A stretch of 15,778 nucleotides of DNA from an uncultured Flavobacteriales bacterium (lineage in GTDB: Bacteria; Bacteroidota; Bacteroidia; Flavobacteriales; Crocinitomicaceae), in contig CAMLDR010000095.1 of the NCBI GenBank assembly GCA_946478775.1, positions 1-15,778 on the forward strand, written 5' to 3'. A program made the position numbers and the translations under genes. Below are positions 1,151 to 15,778 of this stretch, in pieces. The notes below the pieces were generated by a model. The model was not told the origin of the DNA, ran no database searches, and saw only the letters and a list, made by a program, of their open reading frames with translations. The first letter of the stretch is position 1. Each line of letters starts with the position of its first letter.

Positions 1151-1306
1151 TTAGAATCCGCTAAGAAGCACACGAAACACAAGTCTAAAATACGGATAGA
1201 CATCTGTCGATTTGCCCAGTGAGGGCAAGGAGTCCAGGTATTCCTGTTCCAACTGACCCGGTGTTGGAACCAAAACAGCTTTCTTATTCAGGAATTGCCA
1301 ATCCAT
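1151..1306 (-). pseudogene. Remnant of a second copy of the glycosyltransferase C-terminus (51 codons)
   Basis: Reading leftward from ATG at 1306-1304 gives an open frame of 51 residues ending in TAA at 1151-1153. Its first 31 residues (MDWQFLNKKAVLVPTPGQ... to LPSLG) match residues 270-300 of the neighbouring glycosyltransferase with four substitutions (L to W, Q to N, I to V, V to L). Most DNA differences in this part are third-base synonymous changes (CAG/CAA, GCG/GCT, ACG/ACA, CTG/TTG, GAG/GAA), so the copies diverged as coding sequence rather than as junk. There is no catalytic region and no evident promoter. It is probably a leftover of a paralogous or recombined copy rather than a working gene. 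Confidence 0.6.
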
Positions 1307-1308
1307 AA
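1152..1308. repeat. Tandem duplication, distal unit (unit A) of the glycosyltransferase 3' end
   Basis: This stretch directly abuts and matches 1309-1468 along its whole length. Shared anchors are the CCGCTAAGAAGCACA block (1158 and 1316), the GAGGGCAAGGAGTCCAGGTA block (1221 and 1381) and the ATCCAT block near the inner end (1301 and 1461). The period is 157-160 bp because of small indels. The two units agree closely in the non-coding-looking left half but differ at a block (about 1193-1213 against 1351-1374). It fills nearly all of the gap between the kinase and the glycosyltransferase. Confidence 0.85.
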
Positions 1309-2273
1309 TAGATTCCCGCTAAGAAGCACAAGAAACACAAGCCTAAAATACACATCCCGCACCTGCGGGATGTGCCCACTGAGGGCAAGGAGTCCAGGTA
1401 TTCTTGCTCCAGCTGACCCGGCGTTGGAATCAAAACCGCTTTTTTTTGTAGGAACTGCAAATCCATTAGGGTCGAATAACCATTCCGGGAAATGATCGTC
1501 TCTGCAGAAGCGATTTCCGCATCGGCCTGTTTCCAATCAGTGATGAGGGTTACATTCTCCCGAACTTCCGAATAGACTTTGGGAGAGATGACCGTTAGAT
1601 TCTGAGCACCATATTTTGAGATTATCCAATGAAAAAATTGCGTAGAATAAGGTTCCGGCCCGCTAACAATTCCAACGATTTTACCTGGAATAAGGGAAAT
1701 TTCCTGATCCCGGAAACGCGAGTAAAATCCAATATATGTTGATTTAGGAACGGGATTGCTCAAAACTCCGGCAAGCCGTTTTTGGGCATCGTCCATGATC
1801 CAGATAGCTGAAAAACGGTTCATCCATTTCCGGTGAATGCGCTGGGCGATCCAGCCTGCTTTTGGAGGCAGGGAAACCTGGTGTGTAATGAAAATGGATT
1901 GAACGGTATTCGACCGAAAACCGTAGCAGTGATCCGATAGAACAAGCGTAATCCGATGCACACGAACTAACTGTTCGGTTTCAGCCTGCTCTGCTTTGAT
2001 CCATCGGGAAAAACGCCATGCATTTCTCCGCATTTCTGAGGTAAAATTGCCATCCCCTTTGAACCGGAACTGAAATCGGTCGTTCACGATGTATTCCGCG
2101 GGAATTTCATATGTCGTGAAAACCGCCTTCTGAACGGAAGTACAGGAAATAACCAATTCGTTTCCCTGTCCGGATAATTGCTTCAATAAAGAAATGGACC
2201 TGGCCACATGTCCGCTCCCCCAATCGAGGCAGGCGAATAAAATCCGCTCGTGTGACAGTTCGGCCGGAATCAT
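1284..2273 (-). CDS. GT-B fold glycosyltransferase (family 28/MurG-like), C-terminus altered
   Basis: A 329-residue protein probably transferring a sugar from a nucleotide donor; acceptor unknown. The N-terminal Rossmann half opens RILFACLDWGSGHVARS (10-26), with the Gly-rich G-x-GH-x-x-R loop typical of MurG/GT28 relatives. LSDH (112-115) and a THQV segment follow. The C-terminal donor-binding half has VSGPEPYS (203-210), ISRNGYSTLMDL (261-272) and IPTPGQLEQEYL (282-293), the last two matching the GT28 nucleotide-sugar site. From about residue 301 the sequence is unlike the family: a short Cys-rich hydrophobic tail (CGMCILGLCFLCFLAG...) read out of the duplicated repeat. Relatives normally continue with a further polar helix, so the end seems lost and replaced. 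ATG at 2273 lies 3 nt after the kup stop, suggesting co-transcription. No Shine-Dalgarno is visible. Activity is uncertain because of the tail. Confidence 0.75.
   Translation of the reverse strand: MIPAELSHERILFACLDWGSGHVARSISLLKQLSGQGNELVISCTSVQKAVFTTYEIPAEYIVNDRFQFRFKGDGNFTSEMRRNAWRFSRWIKAEQAETEQLVRVHRITLVLSDHCYGFRSNTVQSIFITHQVSLPPKAGWIAQRIHRKWMNRFSAIWIMDDAQKRLAGVLSNPVPKSTYIGFYSRFRDQEISLIPGKIVGIVSGPEPYSTQFFHWIISKYGAQNLTVISPKVYSEVRENVTLITDWKQADAEIASAETIISRNGYSTLMDLQFLQKKAVLIPTPGQLEQEYLDSLPSVGTSRRCGMCILGLCFLCFLAGIYYGLAIPE
1309..1468. repeat. Tandem duplication, proximal unit (unit B), containing the live 3' end of the glycosyltransferase gene
   Basis: This is the counterpart of unit A (1152-1308). 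It encodes glycosyltransferase residues from about 269 onward, so the gene runs through unit B and stops about 25 bases into unit A (TAA at 1284-1286). Unit B contains an 8-base T run on the plus strand (1440-1447; A8 in the gene), a possible slippage site, and the strong hairpin at 1351-1374 that unit A lacks. Confidence 0.85.
1351..1374. repeat. Perfect 10-bp stem, 4-nt loop palindrome inside the glycosyltransferase tail
   Basis: CACATCCCGC (1351-1360), loop ACCT, GCGGGATGTG (1365-1374). A second short inverted repeat, TGCCC/GGGCA (1373-1377 and 1383-1387), overlaps it and is present in unit A too (around 1213-1227). At the matching place unit A has a different, much weaker palindrome (GACA-TC-TGTC, 1199-1208). 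The hairpin lies in the reading frame, upstream of the gene's stop, and no T run follows it on either strand, so it does not look like a normal terminator. Confidence 0.7.
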
Positions 2274-7185: not shown

Positions 7186-7983
7186 TTAATGGTGAGAAAA
7201 TTCGATTTCGTAACTCGTATGTTTGCGAATATTCAAGACTCTTTCGTCATCAAAAATCAAGTACTGTCCTTTGATTCCGGCCAATCTTCCCTGAATAAGA
7301 GGAGATTTGTCGAAGCTGATGCTTTTCACTTTTACCGGATACTTTTCCACCGGGTAATTCAGGGAAATAATCGCATCATTCATACTCACAAAATCACGCA
7401 TATCGAATGGCAGCAAATCTTCCACTCTTCCCTTTTCATCCAGGAGGTCCAATTCGTGATTAATTTCATTTCTGAGCATTCGTTGCCAGTTCGTTTTGTC
7501 TGTCATCAAAGACTTCAGCGCCACTTCAATAATCCCTGCTTCATACCGATTATTTGTCTCTGCCAGAATGATGGCATGAGATGCTCCCTGGTCGATCCAG
7601 CGCGTTAATGTTTGCTCTGCACGGGTAACTCCGACTTTGATGCTGTCTGAAGCCGCCAGATAAACGATATGCGGCTGATTGTGGTGTTTGTGCTCCCAAT
7701 CAATATCCCGTCCTTCACCCAAATGGGCTTTGCAGAGTTCCGGGCTGATGATGCAGGGAGAAGCTTGCGGTGCGGACTGAAAACATGGAAAACAAAAACC
7801 TTGTCCGAATGAATTTTTAGTTTGCTTTCCGCAATTGGAACAGATAATTCTCCCCGTCCAGTTCAGTTCAATTTCCTTTCCGATCAGGTCATTCATCCTG
7901 ATCAGCGGCTCGTTATTTAAAACAAGTTGGTATTGAATCGGTTCCTCAAAGGAAACCCGCATTTTATCCAGTAATCCTTTCAT
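7186..7983 (-). CDS. DUF2797 family protein with zinc-ribbon-like cysteines
   Basis: A 265-residue protein with no established function. Residues 48-67 hold two CxxC pairs (CSNCG and CFPC) like a zinc ribbon, followed by Cys77, Cys84 and His87. The middle, about 105-172 (HIVYLAASDSIKVGVTR, RWIDQGA, NRYEAGIIE, DKTNWQRML), is the conserved core of DUF2797 and faintly recalls GIY-YIG nuclease folds (YLA...VGVTR). I chose ATG at 7983-7981, one base after the ABC-F stop (TAAGATG). An in-frame upstream ATG (8067) would overlap the ABC-F gene by 83 bp and add 28 unrelated residues. This tight junction implies translational coupling with the ABC-F ATPase, hinting at a joint role around ribosomes or RNA (inference only). 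Confidence 0.85.
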   Translation of the reverse strand: MKGLLDKMRVSFEEPIQYQLVLNNEPLIRMNDLIGKEIELNWTGRIICSNCGKQTKNSFGQGFCFPCFQSAPQASPCIISPELCKAHLGEGRDIDWEHKHHNQPHIVYLAASDSIKVGVTRAEQTLTRWIDQGASHAIILAETNNRYEAGIIEVALKSLMTDKTNWQRMLRNEINHELDLLDEKGRVEDLLPFDMRDFVSMNDAIISLNYPVEKYPVKVKSISFDKSPLIQGRLAGIKGQYLIFDDERVLNIRKHTSYEIEFSHH

Positions 7984-7984
7984 C

Positions 7985-9925
7985 TTAATCTTGTATGCTT
8001 TCCAATTCTTCCGTTGCTTCCATCCACAGATCCGAGTAATAATCCAATTTGGACTTGACGTCTTCAAATTCCTTTAAAACCGGGGCCGTTTTTGTTGAAT
8101 CTGAAAAATCCATTGTCGCCAGTTGATCTTCCAGGACCTTCACTTCTTTTTCCAATTCCTGAACGCGCTCTTCATGCTGTCTTACCTTCGTTTGAAGCTG
8201 ATTCTTCTTGCGCTTCAGTTCTTTTCTGTCTTCGTTGGAATGAACTTTGACAGGCGATTCTTCTATTTCTATTATTTTCTGTACCGGTTTCTTTTCCGTT
8301 TTAGGCACGGGCTTGTTAACGGACAGTTTCCGATCCAGGTATTCGTATACTCCAAAATGATGGATTTTCAGGGTTTGGTTCTCAATATCCCAAATACGGT
8401 TCGTTAATCCATCCAAAAATTCCCGGTCGTGAGAAACGATCAGGAATGTTCCTTCGTATTGCAGCAGAGCCCTTTTTAGTACCTGCTTGCTCTGAATATC
8501 CAAATGGTTCGTCGGCTCATCGAGGATCAATACATTCGAGGGACTAAGCAATAGCTGGCACAAAGCCAAACGTGTTCGTTCACCACCGGATAAAACCCCT
8601 ACTTTCTTATCGATGTCCTCGCCTGAAAAAAGGAATGCTCCTAAGATTGAACGCAGGTCTTTTCGAACATCTCCGGAAGCAACCAGGTCTACCGTTTCAT
8701 AAACACTCAAATTCTTATTCAAACGTTCTGCCTGATCCTGGGCAAAATAGGTAATCTTCACATTGTGGCCAAATTCGACCTTTCCTTCAAAATCAATTTC
8801 TTTCGTCAGGCATTTGAACAAGGTAGACTTACCAACCCCGTTAGGTCCGAGAAGTGCAATTTTCTCTCCTCTTCCAACGGTAATCGAAATGTCTTTGAAT
8901 AAAGTTCTTGGCCCATAGCTTTTACCCAAATGTTCCATTTCAAGTACCCATTTTCCGGGCTGTACATTCAGCGGAAAAAAAATGTTCATCCGTGCAACTG
9001 CATCACTTTCCAACTCAATGCGTTCAGTACGATCCAGCTTTTTGATCAATGACTGTGCAAAAGCAGCTTTATTCTTTTTCGCACGGAACTTATCAATCAG
9101 CTCCTGCGTATGTTTAATGTCTTTATCCTGCTGTTTCTTCGCGTCTGCCAACCGTTCCAATTCTTCTGCACGTAACTCCTTGTATTTCGAATAGGCATGC
9201 GGAAAGTCAAGGATCTTACCAAAGGAAATTTCCCAGGTTCGGTTCGTCACGTTGTCGAGGAACAACCTGTCATGGGAAATAACTATTACAGCTCCGTCAA
9301 ATTTCGTCAGGTAATTTTCCAGCCATTGAATGGAAACGATATCCAGGTGGTTTGTAGGCTCATCCAGGAGCAATAAATTCGGTCTGTTCACTAATATCTT
9401 AGCTAATTCGGCCCGCATTTTCCATCCTCCTGAAAATGAGTTCAAAGGCTTTTCAAAATCATCCTTTTGAAATCCCAATCCATCCAATACAGAAGCAATT
9501 TTCTCTTCCCATTGAAATCCGTCGTGGATATTGAACAGGTCATTGGTTGCATTCAGGTCATTCAGGAGTTCCAAATAGGATTCGGATTCATAGTCTTCAC
9601 GGGTCGTCAGCTGCTTATTGATCTCATCAATGTGTAAACGCAAATGATTCAATTGATCATTGGAAAAAAACAGGTAATCAAATACACTTTGAGTTGTATC
9701 AATTACGATATCCTGGGTCAGGAAGCCTAGTTCCAAGCCTTTCTGACGGTGTATTTGACCATCGGTCGGTTTTTCTGTCTGAGCAATTAATCGTAAAAGT
9801 GTGGATTTCCCTGCCCCGTTTTTACCAACTAAACCAATGCGGTCACCCTGGTTGACCTGGGCAGAACATTCTTCAAATAAATAACCTTGCGGGAAATGCA
9901 CTCCCAATTTTTCCAAAACAAGCAT
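7985..9925 (-). CDS. ABC-F family ATPase (Uup-like, two ATP-binding cassettes with C-terminal coiled coil)
   Basis: A 646-residue soluble protein with two ABC cassettes and no membrane segment. Members of this family act on ribosomes or in DNA and RNA processes. Cassette 1 has Walker A GKNGAGKST (34-42), signature FSGGW (164-168), Walker B LLLLDEPTNHLD (184-195) and the SHDR switch (217-220). The charged linker is about 240-325. Cassette 2 has Walker A GPNGVGKST (360-368), signature LSGGE (445-449), LDEPTNHLD (468-476) and VSHDR (497-501). A Lys/Glu-rich coiled coil fills about 562-646, as in Uup-type proteins. Both catalytic glutamates are present. It has its own promoter half-site just upstream and runs directly into the DUF2797 gene. 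There is no sign that it is a drug-resistance ABC-F. Confidence 0.93.
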   Translation of the reverse strand: MLVLEKLGVHFPQGYLFEECSAQVNQGDRIGLVGKNGAGKSTLLRLIAQTEKPTDGQIHRQKGLELGFLTQDIVIDTTQSVFDYLFFSNDQLNHLRLHIDEINKQLTTREDYESESYLELLNDLNATNDLFNIHDGFQWEEKIASVLDGLGFQKDDFEKPLNSFSGGWKMRAELAKILVNRPNLLLLDEPTNHLDIVSIQWLENYLTKFDGAVIVISHDRLFLDNVTNRTWEISFGKILDFPHAYSKYKELRAEELERLADAKKQQDKDIKHTQELIDKFRAKKNKAAFAQSLIKKLDRTERIELESDAVARMNIFFPLNVQPGKWVLEMEHLGKSYGPRTLFKDISITVGRGEKIALLGPNGVGKSTLFKCLTKEIDFEGKVEFGHNVKITYFAQDQAERLNKNLSVYETVDLVASGDVRKDLRSILGAFLFSGEDIDKKVGVLSGGERTRLALCQLLLSPSNVLILDEPTNHLDIQSKQVLKRALLQYEGTFLIVSHDREFLDGLTNRIWDIENQTLKIHHFGVYEYLDRKLSVNKPVPKTEKKPVQKIIEIEESPVKVHSNEDRKELKRKKNQLQTKVRQHEERVQELEKEVKVLEDQLATMDFSDSTKTAPVLKEFEDVKSKLDYYSDLWMEATEELESIQD

Positions 9926-9929
9926 AGTG

Positions 9930-9937
9930 CAAAGGTA
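9930..9937 (-). promoter_or_regulatory. Bacteroidota-type -7 promoter element, ABC-F gene
   Basis: On the minus strand TACCTTTG is an exact TAnnTTTG match. It ends 4 bases before the ABC-F start codon (9925), so the transcript would begin at or next to the ATG. No clear -33 box is seen at 17-23 bp. The conserved opening of the protein (MLVLEKLGVHFPQGYLF) argues against a later start. Confidence 0.45.
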
Positions 9938-10021
9938 GGTAAAGTCTTAGAAAGTTAGAAGTGAAAAGGAATAAGTTCAAAAGGTTCCAGTAGTTTGAAT
10001 GATTGAACAAACAGAAAATAA

Positions 10022-10057: not shown

Positions 10058-11794
10058 TTAAAGAACAAAGGATGCCAGTTTTTTCCTCACAATTTGATCC
10101 GGACCCACATACTCCATTCTGATATTCACAATTGTACCAGGTTTTCCCTGTTTAAGTAATCGCGTCGCTTCATCAGAAATGCGGTTCCCCTTCCCTTTTT
10201 CGGGTTTTGGAGCCGTATTCAAGCTCAATTCCCAATTTAGAATACTGAATTTTGCATCTAAGGGGCTGTTCTTGTAGCGAGAGAACAAGTTCTTCTCATC
10301 CTTGGAAATCTTACCTCCTTCTTCCACTGCACCAAAGAAAAACTCAGGATTTGGAAGTGTCATCACACGAAATGAATAAGATCCTAATTTCACTTTCTTC
10401 TTTGAAACAGAATTGATCCCGTAAATATCAATGGAAGCTGTTTTACCACTTGTGGAAACTTTCGCGATATGCTGACTTCCCGATTTGGATAAAGAAACCC
10501 CGTTCCCGCTTAAAATTGTCTGATCGTATCCTGAAGCAACACCTTCAACAATGTTGTTATATCCTTTGTAAAGCACATTCAACCGAGGCAGCGAGACAGT
10601 TCCCTGCGGCTTCATTATTTTGATCGTATGTGTCCAGTTCTCCTTTTTCTCGATTCCAGATTTGTTTTTAATCGAAACTGTTCCACTAAGTGTCATTTCT
10701 GTTCCCGAACCCACTTTTGTTTTAATCAATCCTTTTCCTTCGGTTCCACGGAAAGAATTTCCATTATAAGTCACCGTTGGCTGATTATCGGAATCAAAGG
10801 CAGCCATCATTACGTTCAATTCAACTTCATCTCCGACATTTGCAATTTCCGGGCCGTAGACCAATCCTACAATCCTGTTAAACGAATATTCTCCGACAGC
10901 CACTTTCGATTTTAAATGAGCCAAAGCCAATGATCGGGCAGAAAGCACATCCTGCTGCATCGAAGACAGGGAAGCCAAAGCCGCAACCAAAGGCGCGTGA
11001 TCGAATGTTTGTCCGATCCAGTGAACTCCGGAAAGTTCGTTTTGAGTAACTCGCTCCGGTTTTGTCAGATTCATGTATATCGATGAGAGGATCTCTTCGT
11101 CATCTCTCAAATTGGCTTTGGATGAAAGCAACATTTGTTTCACTTGTTTCCTGAGATCCTGGTTATTCTTAAACGAATTGATTGCTTTCGGGTTGATTGA
11201 AAAACTATTCTTTCCTTCCCGGTAAGTTCCCATTGCCTGAATTAATTTTGAACGAAATCCGTTGTAGTCATTCCAGATCTTCTTTCCTTTTCCCGTCGGA
11301 TTTTTGATATCATCGCCAATCAGAATGTACATCGGAATGTCATACTGGTCTTTTGCCTGAACAGCCATCAGGTTCATCCGTGCAGGTCTGCAGCCATTTC
11401 CTTTCTCCCAAATGATGGTTTCGCGGTCGTCCGGTTTGACTGTAGACACTTCTTCTCCGGATTCTTTCAACAGTTCCATCTTCACCTGGTCAATTTCCCG
11501 GATCAAACTCGCTGAAAGCTGATCCACCTGTTTCATCTGCTTCATTACTTTTTTCAACTTTCGAAGCTTTTCAGCATTCTCTTTCGGATTGGTTGAGACT
11601 ATTTCATTCGACACATCCGAAATAAATTCGGAGCCGCGATCCACCTGCATACCGTTCGATTTTTGAGTATTCTCTTCGATTGCCACAAAAGCGTCCAGGA
11701 TAGTTTTGGATACGTTCAATGCCAAAAGAGCAGTCAACACTAAGTACATCATTCCGATCATCTTTTGTCTCGGGGTTTCTTTTCCTCCTGCCAT
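10058..11794 (-). CDS. gldM: Second GldM paralogue (type IX secretion / gliding motor protein)
   Basis: A complete 578-residue GldM. The short cytoplasmic N-terminus (MAGGKETPRQ, with Arg9 at the membrane face) precedes one membrane helix (about 13-28), which in GldM packs against GldL in the proton-driven motor. A helical periplasmic domain (about 30-230) follows, then Ig-like domains ending in VRKKLASFVL. The region about 260-450 is almost identical to the other GldM of this window (ENWTHTIKIMKPQGTVSLP and VLYKGYNNIVEGVASGYDQ shared). The last roughly 110 residues are far more divergent. ATG 11794 fits the family opening. It is not cotranscribed with a gldL or an intact gldN: terminators lie on both sides. 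All motifs are intact, so it is probably functional. It may form a second or mixed motor complex, or be a regulated spare. Confidence 0.93.
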   Translation of the reverse strand: MAGGKETPRQKMIGMMYLVLTALLALNVSKTILDAFVAIEENTQKSNGMQVDRGSEFISDVSNEIVSTNPKENAEKLRKLKKVMKQMKQVDQLSASLIREIDQVKMELLKESGEEVSTVKPDDRETIIWEKGNGCRPARMNLMAVQAKDQYDIPMYILIGDDIKNPTGKGKKIWNDYNGFRSKLIQAMGTYREGKNSFSINPKAINSFKNNQDLRKQVKQMLLSSKANLRDDEEILSSIYMNLTKPERVTQNELSGVHWIGQTFDHAPLVAALASLSSMQQDVLSARSLALAHLKSKVAVGEYSFNRIVGLVYGPEIANVGDEVELNVMMAAFDSDNQPTVTYNGNSFRGTEGKGLIKTKVGSGTEMTLSGTVSIKNKSGIEKKENWTHTIKIMKPQGTVSLPRLNVLYKGYNNIVEGVASGYDQTILSGNGVSLSKSGSQHIAKVSTSGKTASIDIYGINSVSKKKVKLGSYSFRVMTLPNPEFFFGAVEEGGKISKDEKNLFSRYKNSPLDAKFSILNWELSLNTAPKPEKGKGNRISDEATRLLKQGKPGTIVNIRMEYVGPDQIVRKKLASFVL

Positions 11795-11854: not shown

Positions 11855-11883
11855 AAAAAAAAAAATGCCGGTTCTCACCGACA
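11855..11883 (-). terminator. Strong intrinsic terminator after gldN2
   Basis: On the minus strand TGTCGGT, loop GAGA, AACCGGCA form a 7-bp stem with one G-U pair (11866-11883), immediately followed by eleven T (11865-11855). It begins 8 bp after the gldN2 stop. This is a textbook terminator and separates gldN2 from gldM2, whose ATG is 60 bp further on. Confidence 0.88.
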
Positions 11884-11890
11884 TTATCTG

Positions 11891-12946
11891 CTAGAAATTC
11901 CAGACATCCTGTTCAAAAGTCCGGATATTCTCTATAATATCAGCGGATTCCTGCAGAGCATCAACTCCCGTCCTGTAACTGTCTATAGACCGGTCAAACA
12001 CATTGCTTTCCTTGTACACCGTACTTGAAAAGCGGCGTTTCCAAAACAGGTCATCGAAGCTCATCCATTGTGCATCATTCTTCTCATTATACACGTAATA
12101 ATTGGTCAGCAGGTATCTCAGGTGCGGGAAGTAGATTCAAAATTTGGTTTCCAGACCTGCAATCGTTTTCTGTCCGTTCGGTGCTGTTTCTTCTTTTAGA
12201 ATTACCGGTGCGATGCCCATGATGCGGACATCCATCACCGAGCGTTCTTTATCGAAAAACCAATCTTCCTTGATACGGTACTTTACAATATCTTTTGAAT
12301 CGATCCAAAAAGTATCTCTCGGGTAATAAACATATTCTTCCACTCCGTTTACCCATATGGTAGAATCCCTTCCATCCACAGTAGATCGTGGAACATCTGA
12401 TTCAGGTCCCAATTTCCCTAAATAATAGAACACTTCATTCCTGAAAATGGAATCATTGCAATAATTTCCGCCTGGTTTAGGAGCAACCGGATACTTAAAC
12501 TGATCACCGTCCACCATATCAAACTGATAGGGATTATAGGCTGAAAACAGTTTCAATTCTCCCTTGACAATGTGGTGTCTCAGGATCGTCCATAAGGACC
12601 AGCAATTGGTATTTCTTACGTATTGCCCGGAAGGAGTATGATAATCGAACGGGTAGTACAAGGAGTGATTGATTTTTTCTCTCAGATCAATTTCACGCCA
12701 AACACGTTTGCTCCATACAACGTCCGCTTCCCTGATATACTCGTAAGGAACGGTTCGTTTCGTTAGAATATGTTCTTTGACATACGGATAATCCAAAGTT
12801 GGTGTGGAGGAAATAAAATCCGTTGATTCACATTGCGCATTCACATCATGGAATGCTGCAAGAAATAAGATAAGAGTCAGCTGTCGCTGACGAAGACTGA
12901 AGCCCCGTCTTGAGACGGGATTGCTAAGGGAGGTAACTCTTTTCAT
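11891..12946 (-). pseudogene. gldN: GldN paralogue (gldO-like), interrupted by one in-frame TGA
   Basis: A 351-position second GldN, the periplasmic partner of GldK and GldM in the type IX secretion ring. It reads through 269 codons to TGA at 12139-12137, then continues in the same frame for 81 codons (IYFPH... to FEQDVWNF) to TAG at 11893-11891. At the TGA the other GldN has Trp (EKFWLYFPH against TKF-stop-IYFPH), so one TGG to TGA change explains it. There is no frameshift and no other damage. The downstream 81 residues are about 75% identical to the intact copy, so the lesion is recent, read through, or a sequencing error. The signal peptide has an extended n-region made by a palindromic insert. 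It follows gldN but is separated by a terminator. In F. johnsoniae a gldN paralogue (gldO) occupies the same place and is partly redundant. Confidence 0.85.
12876..12931. repeat. Palindromic insert within the gldN2 signal-peptide coding region
   Basis: GldN2 starts MKRVT, continues with about 18 residues rich in Arg and Ser (SLSNPVSRRGFSLRQRQL), then TLILFLAAFHDVNAQ. Removing the block leaves MKRVTLILFLAAFHDVNAQ, which lines up with the intact GldN start MKRLVLLSTLIAGSFLTNAQ. The extra DNA, about 54-57 bp, keeps the frame and contains two hairpins: CCCGTC-TTGA-GACGGG (12904-12919) and GTCAGC-TGTC-GCTGAC (12876-12891). The h-region and AQ cleavage site remain, so export may survive with a long, positively charged n-region. 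It resembles the idea of coding palindromic elements such as the Rickettsia ones, but no family was recognised. Confidence 0.6.
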
Positions 12947-13018: not shown

Positions 13019-13048
13019 ACCCCGATCTCGTATGTACGGGACCGGGGT
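13019..13048 (-). terminator. Intrinsic terminator after gldN
   Basis: ACCCCGATCTCGT (13019-13031) pairs with ACGGGACCGGGGT (13036-13048), with one mismatch and one G-T pair, around a 4-nt loop. On the minus strand it is followed by TTTTTGTTT. It lies 22 bp after the gldN stop and ends the gldM-gldN transcript before gldN2. On the plus strand a T-rich stretch also follows, but no plus-strand gene needs it. Confidence 0.85.
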
Positions 13049-13070: not shown

Positions 13071-14081
13071 TTAGAAGTTCCAAACGTCGTGTTCGAAATT
13101 TCTGATCTCTTCTGTAATCTTCTCAGATTCCATTAGTGCATCCACACCAGTTTTGTAACTATCGATCTCGCGATCAAACACGTTACTTTCACGGTAGATA
13201 GAACTAGTGAAGCGACGCTGCCAGAACAAGTCATCAAAACTTTGCCATTGGGCGTCATTCTTCTCATTGTATACAAAGTAGTTAGCTAAAATGTAACGAC
13301 AATGTGGGAAGTATAACCAAAATTTCTCATCCATTCCGGTAATGTTCTTACCACCTGTAGGAGAAACTTCTTCCCTGTATACAACCGGTGCAATTCCAAG
13401 GATACGCACATCTAATACAGATCGTTCTTTATCAAAGAACCAATCTTCTTTAATGCGGTACTGAACAATTTGCTCAGAATCAATCCACATGGTATCAGCT
13501 GGCGGATACTTGAAGGTAATTGTTCCATCCGGAAGTGTGATCTCAATTGGATCTCCGAATTCATTAGTCAATGGAACATCACTTTGAGCACCCAATTTTC
13601 CTAAATAATAGAATACTTTGTCGCGGAATAAAGAATCAGTATAATAATTCTTACCCGCTTCAGGTACTATCGGATATTTAAACTGATCTCCATCTAACAT
13701 ATCAAACTGATACGGATTATAAGGGGAAAACACTTTCAAATCTCCATTAATGATATGGTGACGCATGATCGTCCACAAAGACCAACGGCTTGTATTTCGA
13801 ACATACTGACCGGATGGCGTGTGATAATCAAACGGTAAATAAATCGGATGATTCATTTTTTCACGCATATCAATCATGCGCCAAACACGATGACTCCAGA
13901 CTACATCAGCTTCACGAACAAACTCGTATGGGACCATTCTTTTGGTAGGTATATGTTCTGTCATATACACCCCATCAATTACATCCGCCTGAGGAACATT
14001 CACTGGCCCACCATTGATTTCCTGCGCGTTCGTTAAAAACGAACCTGCAATCAAGGTACTTAATAGAACTAAACGTTTCAT
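13071..14081 (-). CDS. gldN: Gliding motility / type IX secretion protein GldN
   Basis: A 336-residue exported protein with a Sec signal peptide (MKRLVLLSTLIAGSFLTNAQ, cleavage after Ala19 or Gln20). GldN binds the lipoprotein GldK to form the periplasmic ring of the type IX secretion system and contacts GldM. Typical segments are KRMVPYEFVREADVVWSHRVWR, DYHTPSGQYVRNTSRWSLW, YNPYQFDMLDGDQFKYP, KEDWFFDKERSVLDVRILGIAPV, EKFWLYFPHCRY and NEKNDAQWQSFDDLFWQRRF. I chose ATG 14081 over an in-frame GTG at 14090, because it gives the MKR opening shared with gldN2 and a normal signal peptide. It lies 27 bp after gldM (stop at 14109) with no hairpin between, so the two are one operon. A terminator follows. 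Complete and probably functional. Confidence 0.95.
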   Translation of the reverse strand: MKRLVLLSTLIAGSFLTNAQEINGGPVNVPQADVIDGVYMTEHIPTKRMVPYEFVREADVVWSHRVWRMIDMREKMNHPIYLPFDYHTPSGQYVRNTSRWSLWTIMRHHIINGDLKVFSPYNPYQFDMLDGDQFKYPIVPEAGKNYYTDSLFRDKVFYYLGKLGAQSDVPLTNEFGDPIEITLPDGTITFKYPPADTMWIDSEQIVQYRIKEDWFFDKERSVLDVRILGIAPVVYREEVSPTGGKNITGMDEKFWLYFPHCRYILANYFVYNEKNDAQWQSFDDLFWQRRFTSSIYRESNVFDREIDSYKTGVDALMESEKITEEIRNFEHDVWNF

Positions 14082-14108
14082 GATTGACACTCTATTACTT
14101 ATTATTTA

Positions 14109-15778
14109 TTAAATGGTAAACACACCACTTTTCTTACGTAGGATTCCGTCCGGCCCTTTAACTTGCGTCATAAAGCTGATACTGGATCCTGGTTTTGCTT
14201 GTCTCATTAAGCTGATTCCATCCGCGTTTAACTGGTTTCCTGATCCTTTAGCAGGACGAGGAGCACCGGCAACGTTCAATTCCCATGATTGAACAACGAA
14301 TTCAGCTTTCAAAGGGCTATCCGAGTAACGTGCAAATAAACGTGTTTCTGCTTTAGAAGCTTTACCACCGTCTTCAACTGCTCCGAAGAACAAAGATGGA
14401 GGAGGTAAGTTCATTACACGGAAAGTAAATGTTCCCAATGAAACCGTTTTGTTTGTTACCGAGTTTTTACCGGAGATAGAGATTGTAGCTGTTCTTCCAG
14501 CTCCGCTCACACGACCGATATAACCGTTACCTGATTTTGTCAAAGAAACACCGTTACCGTTCAGGATAGTCTGATCGTAACCAGAAGCAACACCTTCAAC
14601 AATATTGTTATATCCTTTATACAATACATTCAATTCAGGAAGAGAAACAGTTCCCTGCGGCTTCATGATCTTAATTGTATGCGTCCAGTTCTCAGTTTTC
14701 TTAACTCCTGATTTGTTCTTGATCGATACAGTACCGCTCAATACCATTTCAGCACCTCCGGCAACTTTTGTTTTTATAGTACCCTGACCACCAGCAATCT
14801 CGATAGCTCCATTATTGGAAGTTACCTCTGGTTGGTTATCCGAGTCAAATGCTGCCATCATTACTTTCAACTCTACTTCATCACCTGTGTTAGCAATCGG
14901 AGGTCCGTAAGCCAAAGGCATGATTTTATTGAATGAGTATTCTCCTGTAGACACTTTAGATTTCAAGTGAGCAAGCGCATAAGCACGAGCAGACAAAACA
15001 TCCTGTTGCATCGAAGTTAAAGATGCAACTGCCGCTACTAACGGAGAGTGATCAAATGTAGCTCCGATCCAGTGAACACCTTCCATATCGTGAACTTTCA
15101 TTCTTTCAGGCTTCGTCAAGTTAATGTACAAGTCCGTTAAAGCCTGGTCATCATCCATGTGATTCACATTGCTTTTCTTCACCATATCAGAAACCTGCTT
15201 CACCAAGTCCGCATTGCTCTTATACGTATTGATCGGTTTCACATTAATGGAGTATGATTTACCTCCTTCTTTGTAAGAACCTACCGTTTTCAGGATATCC
15301 GCGCGGAATTTGATTAAATCATCCCACAACTGTTTTCCTTTTCCAGTTGGAGTTTTAATATCTTCTCCTACGATTTCGTGCATTGGAACATCGTATTGAT
15401 CCTTTGCCTGAACAGCCATCAGGTTCATACGAATAGGCTTACAATTCGCCCCTTTTTCCCAAAGGATTGTATTCTCGTCGTCCTTTTTGTATTCCTTTAC
15501 AGCTTCACCGGATTTCTCTAAGATCTCAAGTTTAATCTCATCAATATTTTTAAGCAACTTATCGGATATCTTGTTTACTTCATCCATTTGCTTTAAAATC
15601 TTCTGCAACTTTTCTCTCTTAGCAGCATTTTCAGCATTCTTAGGAGTTGTATTCAGCTCACTATTTACATCACTAGTGAAACCTTCTCCACGCTCAAACT
15701 GAGCGATGTTTGCTTTTTGTATATTTTCTTCAATTGCGACAAAAGCGTCGAGAATCTGCTTTGATACGTTCAACGCCA
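14109..15778 (-). CDS. gldM: GldM, canonical copy, truncated by the right window edge
   Basis: The visible part is about 556 codons. The first ones, ALNVSKQILDAFVAIEEN, correspond to the end of the membrane helix, so only about 22-25 N-terminal residues lie outside. A helical periplasmic region (to about 220) with MNLMAVQAKDQYDVPMHE is followed by Ig-like domains with the shared block VSIKNKSG, ENWTHTIKIMKPQGTVSLP and LYKGYNNIVEGVASGYDQ, and the end RKKSGVFTI. It couples the GldL motor in the inner membrane to the GldK/GldN ring in the periplasm. It is followed directly by gldN, the canonical gldL-M-N order, so gldK and gldL are expected just beyond 15778. There is no internal stop or frameshift. 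Confidence 0.96.
   Translation of the reverse strand, partial: ALNVSKQILDAFVAIEENIQKANIAQFERGEGFTSDVNSELNTTPKNAENAAKREKLQKILKQMDEVNKISDKLLKNIDEIKLEILEKSGEAVKEYKKDDENTILWEKGANCKPIRMNLMAVQAKDQYDVPMHEIVGEDIKTPTGKGKQLWDDLIKFRADILKTVGSYKEGGKSYSINVKPINTYKSNADLVKQVSDMVKKSNVNHMDDDQALTDLYINLTKPERMKVHDMEGVHWIGATFDHSPLVAAVASLTSMQQDVLSARAYALAHLKSKVSTGEYSFNKIMPLAYGPPIANTGDEVELKVMMAAFDSDNQPEVTSNNGAIEIAGGQGTIKTKVAGGAEMVLSGTVSIKNKSGVKKTENWTHTIKIMKPQGTVSLPELNVLYKGYNNIVEGVASGYDQTILNGNGVSLTKSGNGYIGRVSGAGRTATISISGKNSVTNKTVSLGTFTFRVMNLPPPSLFFGAVEDGGKASKAETRLFARYSDSPLKAEFVVQSWELNVAGAPRPAKGSGNQLNADGISLMRQAKPGSSISFMTQVKGPDGILRKKSGVFTI

Follow-up and report, generated by a model that had tools for sequence, protein, structure and literature searches.

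An otherwise intact second gldN gene interrupted by a single in-frame TGA raises the question of whether the stop is a fresh lesion, an error in the sequence, a recoded codon or the end of a shortened but working protein. The gene lies in a stretch of 15,778 nucleotides (hereafter, the window) from a Fluviicola-like member of the Crocinitomicaceae, and its closest listed GldN2 matches are mostly Fluviicola or Flavobacteriales records. On the minus strand, the window carries the gene order gldM1-gldN1-gldN2-gldM2, with the following features:

10058..11794, minus strand: gldM2, intact, downstream of gldN2 (open reading frame, profile match)
11865..11885, minus strand: terminator-like hairpin with a T run behind it, past the end of gldN2 (read from the sequence)
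11891..11893, minus strand: TAG stop, where full-length orthologues end (translation, orthologue comparison)
11894..12136, minus strand: gldN2 part after the stop, 81 open and strongly conserved codons (translation, profile matches, orthologues)
12137..12139, minus strand: in-frame TGA at the position of the relatives' conserved Trp (sequence, orthologue comparison)
12140..12946, minus strand: gldN2 part before the stop, 269 codons including the insertion (translation, TIGR03523 and PF19841 matches)
12875..12931, minus strand: 57-bp insertion, in frame and forming two hairpins, within the part of gldN2 that encodes the signal peptide, resembling a dispersed repeat of relatives (alignment, fold, repeat search)
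13020..13047, minus strand: terminator-like hairpin between gldN1 and gldN2 (read from the sequence and alignment)
13071..14081, minus strand: gldN1, the intact neighbour, likely starting at the ATG at 14081 by comparison with P0007, in a frame open from the GTG at 14090
14109..15778, minus strand: gldM1, cut by the window end (open reading frame, profile match)

The plus strand reads tca at 12137-12139, which is a minus-strand TGA directly following the residues KF in frame, and the stop is truly in the given sequence, which is one assembled contig. The 81-codon tail behind it ends in VWNF, and direct comparison of the translations revealed 61 of its 81 residues (75%) equal to those of the window's own GldN (GldN1). 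Both pieces of gldN2 match consecutive parts of the GldN models: the N-terminal piece scores over the cut-offs of TIGR03523 (98.9 versus 85.9 bits) and PF19841 (108.8 versus 23 bits), and the C-terminal piece over that of PF19841 (87.8 bits) but, alone, under that of TIGR03523 (70.8 bits). Since the frame halts after 269 codons, a GldN domain complete to its C-terminal end is not encoded, and the tail exists in DNA only. The original prediction, which described an in-frame TGA splitting gldN2 and 81 uninterrupted codons about 75% identical to GldN down to VWNF, was right in both respects. Nearer the start of the gene, it had missed 19 extra in-frame codons stemming from a palindromic insertion.

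Comparison with relatives places the stop in time. The codon at its position is TGG in all eight orthologues compared (G013, L001-L006 and G014), all of which run through it, and all 43 of the GldN proteins aligned, 42 chosen among the 120 listed of 2023 matches plus GldN1, share the corresponding Trp. Full-length GldN2 orthologues occur in 8 of the 14 genus genomes, those holding the GldN2 clade; inner stops are absent from the 27 GldN rows retrieved from these 14 genomes (two rows being weak partial matches) and from the listed rows of a family search of 240 genomes, 223 of which carry GldN. The single markedly short protein among the 120 listed of 2023 matches is P0044 (228 aa, 68% identity), from an 865-base contig. 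Against each of the eight orthologues, the tail differs at 2-5 of 81 residues and at 39-56 nucleotides, and its YN00 dN/dS amounts to 0.011-0.027 in the five window pairs yielding a value; YN00 gave none in the remaining three of eight, and for the tail NG86 gave no dS in any window pair. The part before the stop differs at 18-61 of 250 residues, with NG86 dN/dS of 0.026-0.080 over the eight window pairs, which makes the lost part the better conserved one. A strict count assigned no amino-acid change private to the window to the tail and two to the part before the stop. gldN2 thus displays one inactivating lesion and no private change after it, instead of the several lesions and relaxed constraint of a decaying pseudogene. 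An old truncation, to be expected if relatives lacked the downstream part, is rejected because the tail is conserved and the orthologues examined are full length. The proposal that the lesion is either very young or not real held up.

The age of the stop can be roughly bounded under assumed figures of ~0.5 synonymous changes per site on the window branch and ~180 non-synonymous sites in the tail. Unconstrained evolution over the whole branch would then predict ~90 non-synonymous changes in the tail, where two residue differences are seen with respect to L004 (95% Poisson limit 6.3), so the stop would be younger than ~7% of the branch.

What is directly observed here, that is, the stop, its absence from the orthologues compared, an intact conserved tail and intact gldN1 and gldM2 frames, is best read as a nonsense allele of very recent origin in a dispensable gldN paralogue next to an intact gldN1, a sequence-based reading to which we give a probability of about 0.6. 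gldN2 would be a tandem paralogue comparable to gldO of Flavobacterium johnsoniae, in which one recent nonsense mutation, particular to this lineage, changed the codon of the conserved Trp to TGA. If the allele is real in the cell, translation would halt after 269 codons; lacking the last 81 residues and the Trp, the product probably could not be built into the PorK/N-type ring but would be degraded or remain inert, and GldN1 would presumably compensate and carry the function. Dispensability of a second copy over evolution seems plausible because 3 of the 14 genus genomes (G009, G010 and G012, of unstated completeness) show a single GldN. The genus tree unites the GldN2 copies of the window and of eight genomes in a single clade (100/100), apart from other tandem GldN pairs carried by G007, G008 and G011. 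However, the gene overall is far from useless, since GldN2 is strongly constrained across species, as the dN/dS of its N-terminal part attests, and an allele known from one contig may be rare and untypical of the species.

The main rival is a sequencing, assembly or strain-mixture artefact in a cell that has an ordinary Trp codon, which we regard as distinctly less likely than a nonsense allele yet a serious contender. It leads the competitors because the searches turned up no other sequence of this species, and none of this strain, across the TGA, which weighs equally on the nonsense reading. Both the lack of any other sign of decay in gldN2 and the lack of an inner stop in every listed relative fit such an error; on the other hand, assembled consensus sequences seldom contain an isolated wrong base, and none of the window's other large frames contains an inner TGA. 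Near-100% proteins were not found among the matches listed for either piece of gldN2, the best reaching 82% in one search (lengths ~148-470) and 79% in another (28 matches, lengths ~45-142), which decides nothing, as conserved fragments of the tail could be concealed by clustering at 90%. In the adjacent gene, a GldM2 100% identical to that of the window (P0122) is found on a 2988-base contig that may or may not be independent of the window.

Read-through or suppression of the UGA, yielding some full-length GldN2 and keeping the tail under selection, would explain a tail as constrained as that of intact orthologues, but it is improbable. With the stop observed in just one lineage, no period can be demonstrated over which selection of this kind would have acted. 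Furthermore, UGA serves as a normal stop: it ends trmB in the window, the gldN2 genes of L006 and G014, and, at 30-32, a frame at the window start with the tail GVGYTFSEK, named a response regulator by the earlier reader. A mechanical count of frame ends adds little, with two TGA ends in the window, one of them the gldN2 TGA itself, and none in L001, L003 and L004. These termini agree with the original prediction that UGA is a true stop elsewhere in the window and that a changed genetic code is excluded, and we likewise reject the latter. SelB scored over the cut-off in none of eight relatives versus 2 of 14 controls, weaker matches occurring in all eight relatives and in controls. The tRNA-Sec model exceeded the gathering score in four of the eight relatives, barely (47.3 versus 47 bits), and in 5 of the 14 controls; ARAGORN called all four places in the relatives tRNA-Ser. 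Folding is weak in the 70 nt that begin at the stop (−4.6 kcal/mol, a value without shuffle control). As judged from the relatives' genomes and from this weak fold in the window, the SelB, tRNA-Sec and post-UGA hairpin of a selenoprotein or programmed UGA are not in evidence; selenocysteine is unsupported, the suggestion of a suppressed codon gained no positive evidence, and recoding of this UGA is very unlikely given its role as terminator of trmB and of two orthologous gldN2 genes and the SelB result. Read-through at an ordinary low level may nonetheless occur, and the strain may have a suppressor tRNA.

The palindromic insertion in gldN2 is a new observation of this analysis. With respect to P0002-P0006, the window gldN2 has 19 extra codons after the fifth codon, and the DNA encoding them folds into two hairpins (an 81-base stretch reaches −23.0 kcal/mol, calculated without shuffle control). 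G013, a different species at 80-83% nucleotide identity, carries the insertion at the same place with 6 of 57 bases different and has an intact gldN2. Among the 14 genus genomes, insertion-like matches at an E value of 0.001 numbered 18 in G001, two in G013 (one being the gldN2 site), and one each in G004 and G014, with none in the other ten at this threshold; the window itself holds one copy. Of 26 repeat stretches of at least 25 bases, distributed over 17 loci of G001 and G004, 25 lie outside any frame of at least 100 codons with a preceding ATG. Small palindromic mobile repeats are known from bacteria, the Rickettsia palindromic elements among them. Based on the dispersed, mostly intergenic copies in G001 and G004, the insertion looks similar to repeats of the REP or MITE type, in this case one that signal-peptide code tolerates without loss of frame; the many dispersed palindromic copies that define such repeats are those of relatives' genomes, and by eye the alignment disclosed no clear target-site duplication.

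The history of the insertion looks like a recombination mosaic, since gldN2 of the window groups in the tree with that of G004 (89/86, unstarred), a genome without the insertion there, yet both the insertion and a similar terminator before gldN2 are shared with G013. Along the window, the gld region aligns to relatives in pieces of 73-89% nucleotide identity, and the closest relative shifts: L004 for gldN2, L001 by nucleotides for gldN1-gldM1 (88.8%), and L003 for the ABC-protein stretch at 7983-9945 (83.0%). Because the closest relative changes in this way when compared with L001-L006 and L135, the pattern suggests recombination between Fluviicola species. gldN1 and gldN2 are close neighbours in L003-L006 and ~1.9 kb apart in L001 and L002; no RNA family matched the window at gathering score. 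Elsewhere in the window, a diverged tandem duplication of ~160 bp at 1158-1466 (pieces 86% and 94% identical) overlaps the 3' end of a glycosyltransferase gene (1284-2273, minus strand), the C-terminus of which is thus unlike that of G013. As for the relatives, the record of L006 (CP034120.1) is titled Glaciecola amylolytica, a name that looks wrong because its gld cluster belongs within the Fluviicola GldN2 clade.

The insertion also encodes SRRGFS in the window and SRRGLS in G013, before a hydrophobic stretch. Twin-arginine signal motifs follow the pattern S/T-R-R-x-F/L, which SRRG[F/L] resembles, and TatC is present in eight of eight relatives. One could therefore imagine that a mobile palindromic repeat entered the signal-peptide code of gldN2 in frame, in an ancestor or through subsequent recombination, kept its frame open in two species and supplied a long twin-arginine-like n-region, so that a normally Sec-exported ring subunit could use Tat or another export route, and that the later stop marks the loss of this altered copy. 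We consider this chain of events highly improbable.

Slightly less credible still is that the 269-codon product works as a shortened or dominant-negative ring subunit. The structural model of the orthologue P0002 (mean pLDDT 74.9, pTM 0.70, with residues 291-310, in the tail, under 55) speaks partly for it: the part before the stop would retain most central strands, and what follows comprises a short strand, two short helices, another short strand and a long C-terminal helix. Yet the lost part is precisely the better conserved one, the 27 rows of the 14 genus genomes contain no inner stop, and P0044 is the sole markedly short protein among those listed, so the idea of a dominant-negative or alternative ring subunit found no support. 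An old pseudogene or a changed code deserves next to no credence, the tail being free of decay and TGA an ordinary terminator in the window and in two orthologous genes.

Any mechanism beyond loss of function is unsupported, and the two leading causes, a recent nonsense allele and an artefact, are both ordinary. If the allele is real, it captures a duplicated secretion-ring gene at the first step of loss, with decay yet to begin, in a genus whose second gldN copy is otherwise strongly conserved. The insertion, for its part, illustrates that a signal peptide can be extended by a small dispersed repeat while the reading frame is preserved. Neither of the two changes the understanding of type IX secretion.

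Three known systems frame these findings. An earlier report (PMC2229807) places small bacterial repeats in intragenic positions; the insertion in gldN2 is similar to small palindromic mobile repeats of the REP/MITE kind in being short, palindromic, dispersed in a relative and in frame within a gene, whereas the window copy departs from the relatives' form, with 57 nt versus up to 59 nt and whole-length identities of 69-76%. Both pieces of gldN2 match GldN/PorN, the ring subunit of the type IX secretion system (TIGR03523, PF19841), and the modelled fold of the P0002 orthologue is akin to that of Porphyromonas gingivalis PorN chains 9mzu, 9ots, 7pvh and 9myj (TM-scores of 0.52-0.54 by query length, the ring entries 9mzu and 9ots included); gldN2 differs from this family in being interrupted at about three quarters of its length and in its longer signal-peptide n-region. 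Finally, gldN2 lies adjacent to gldN1 in the gld cluster, as gldO does to gldN in F. johnsoniae, where the two proteins are described as partially redundant (PMC9127263) and are both reported to contact GldM in two-hybrid assays (PMC8986121). The GldN tree covers this genus and the window alone, and the likeness to GldO is one of position and paralogy: two neighbouring GldN paralogues, one of them maybe dispensable, with the difference that in the window a second gldM follows the second gldN.
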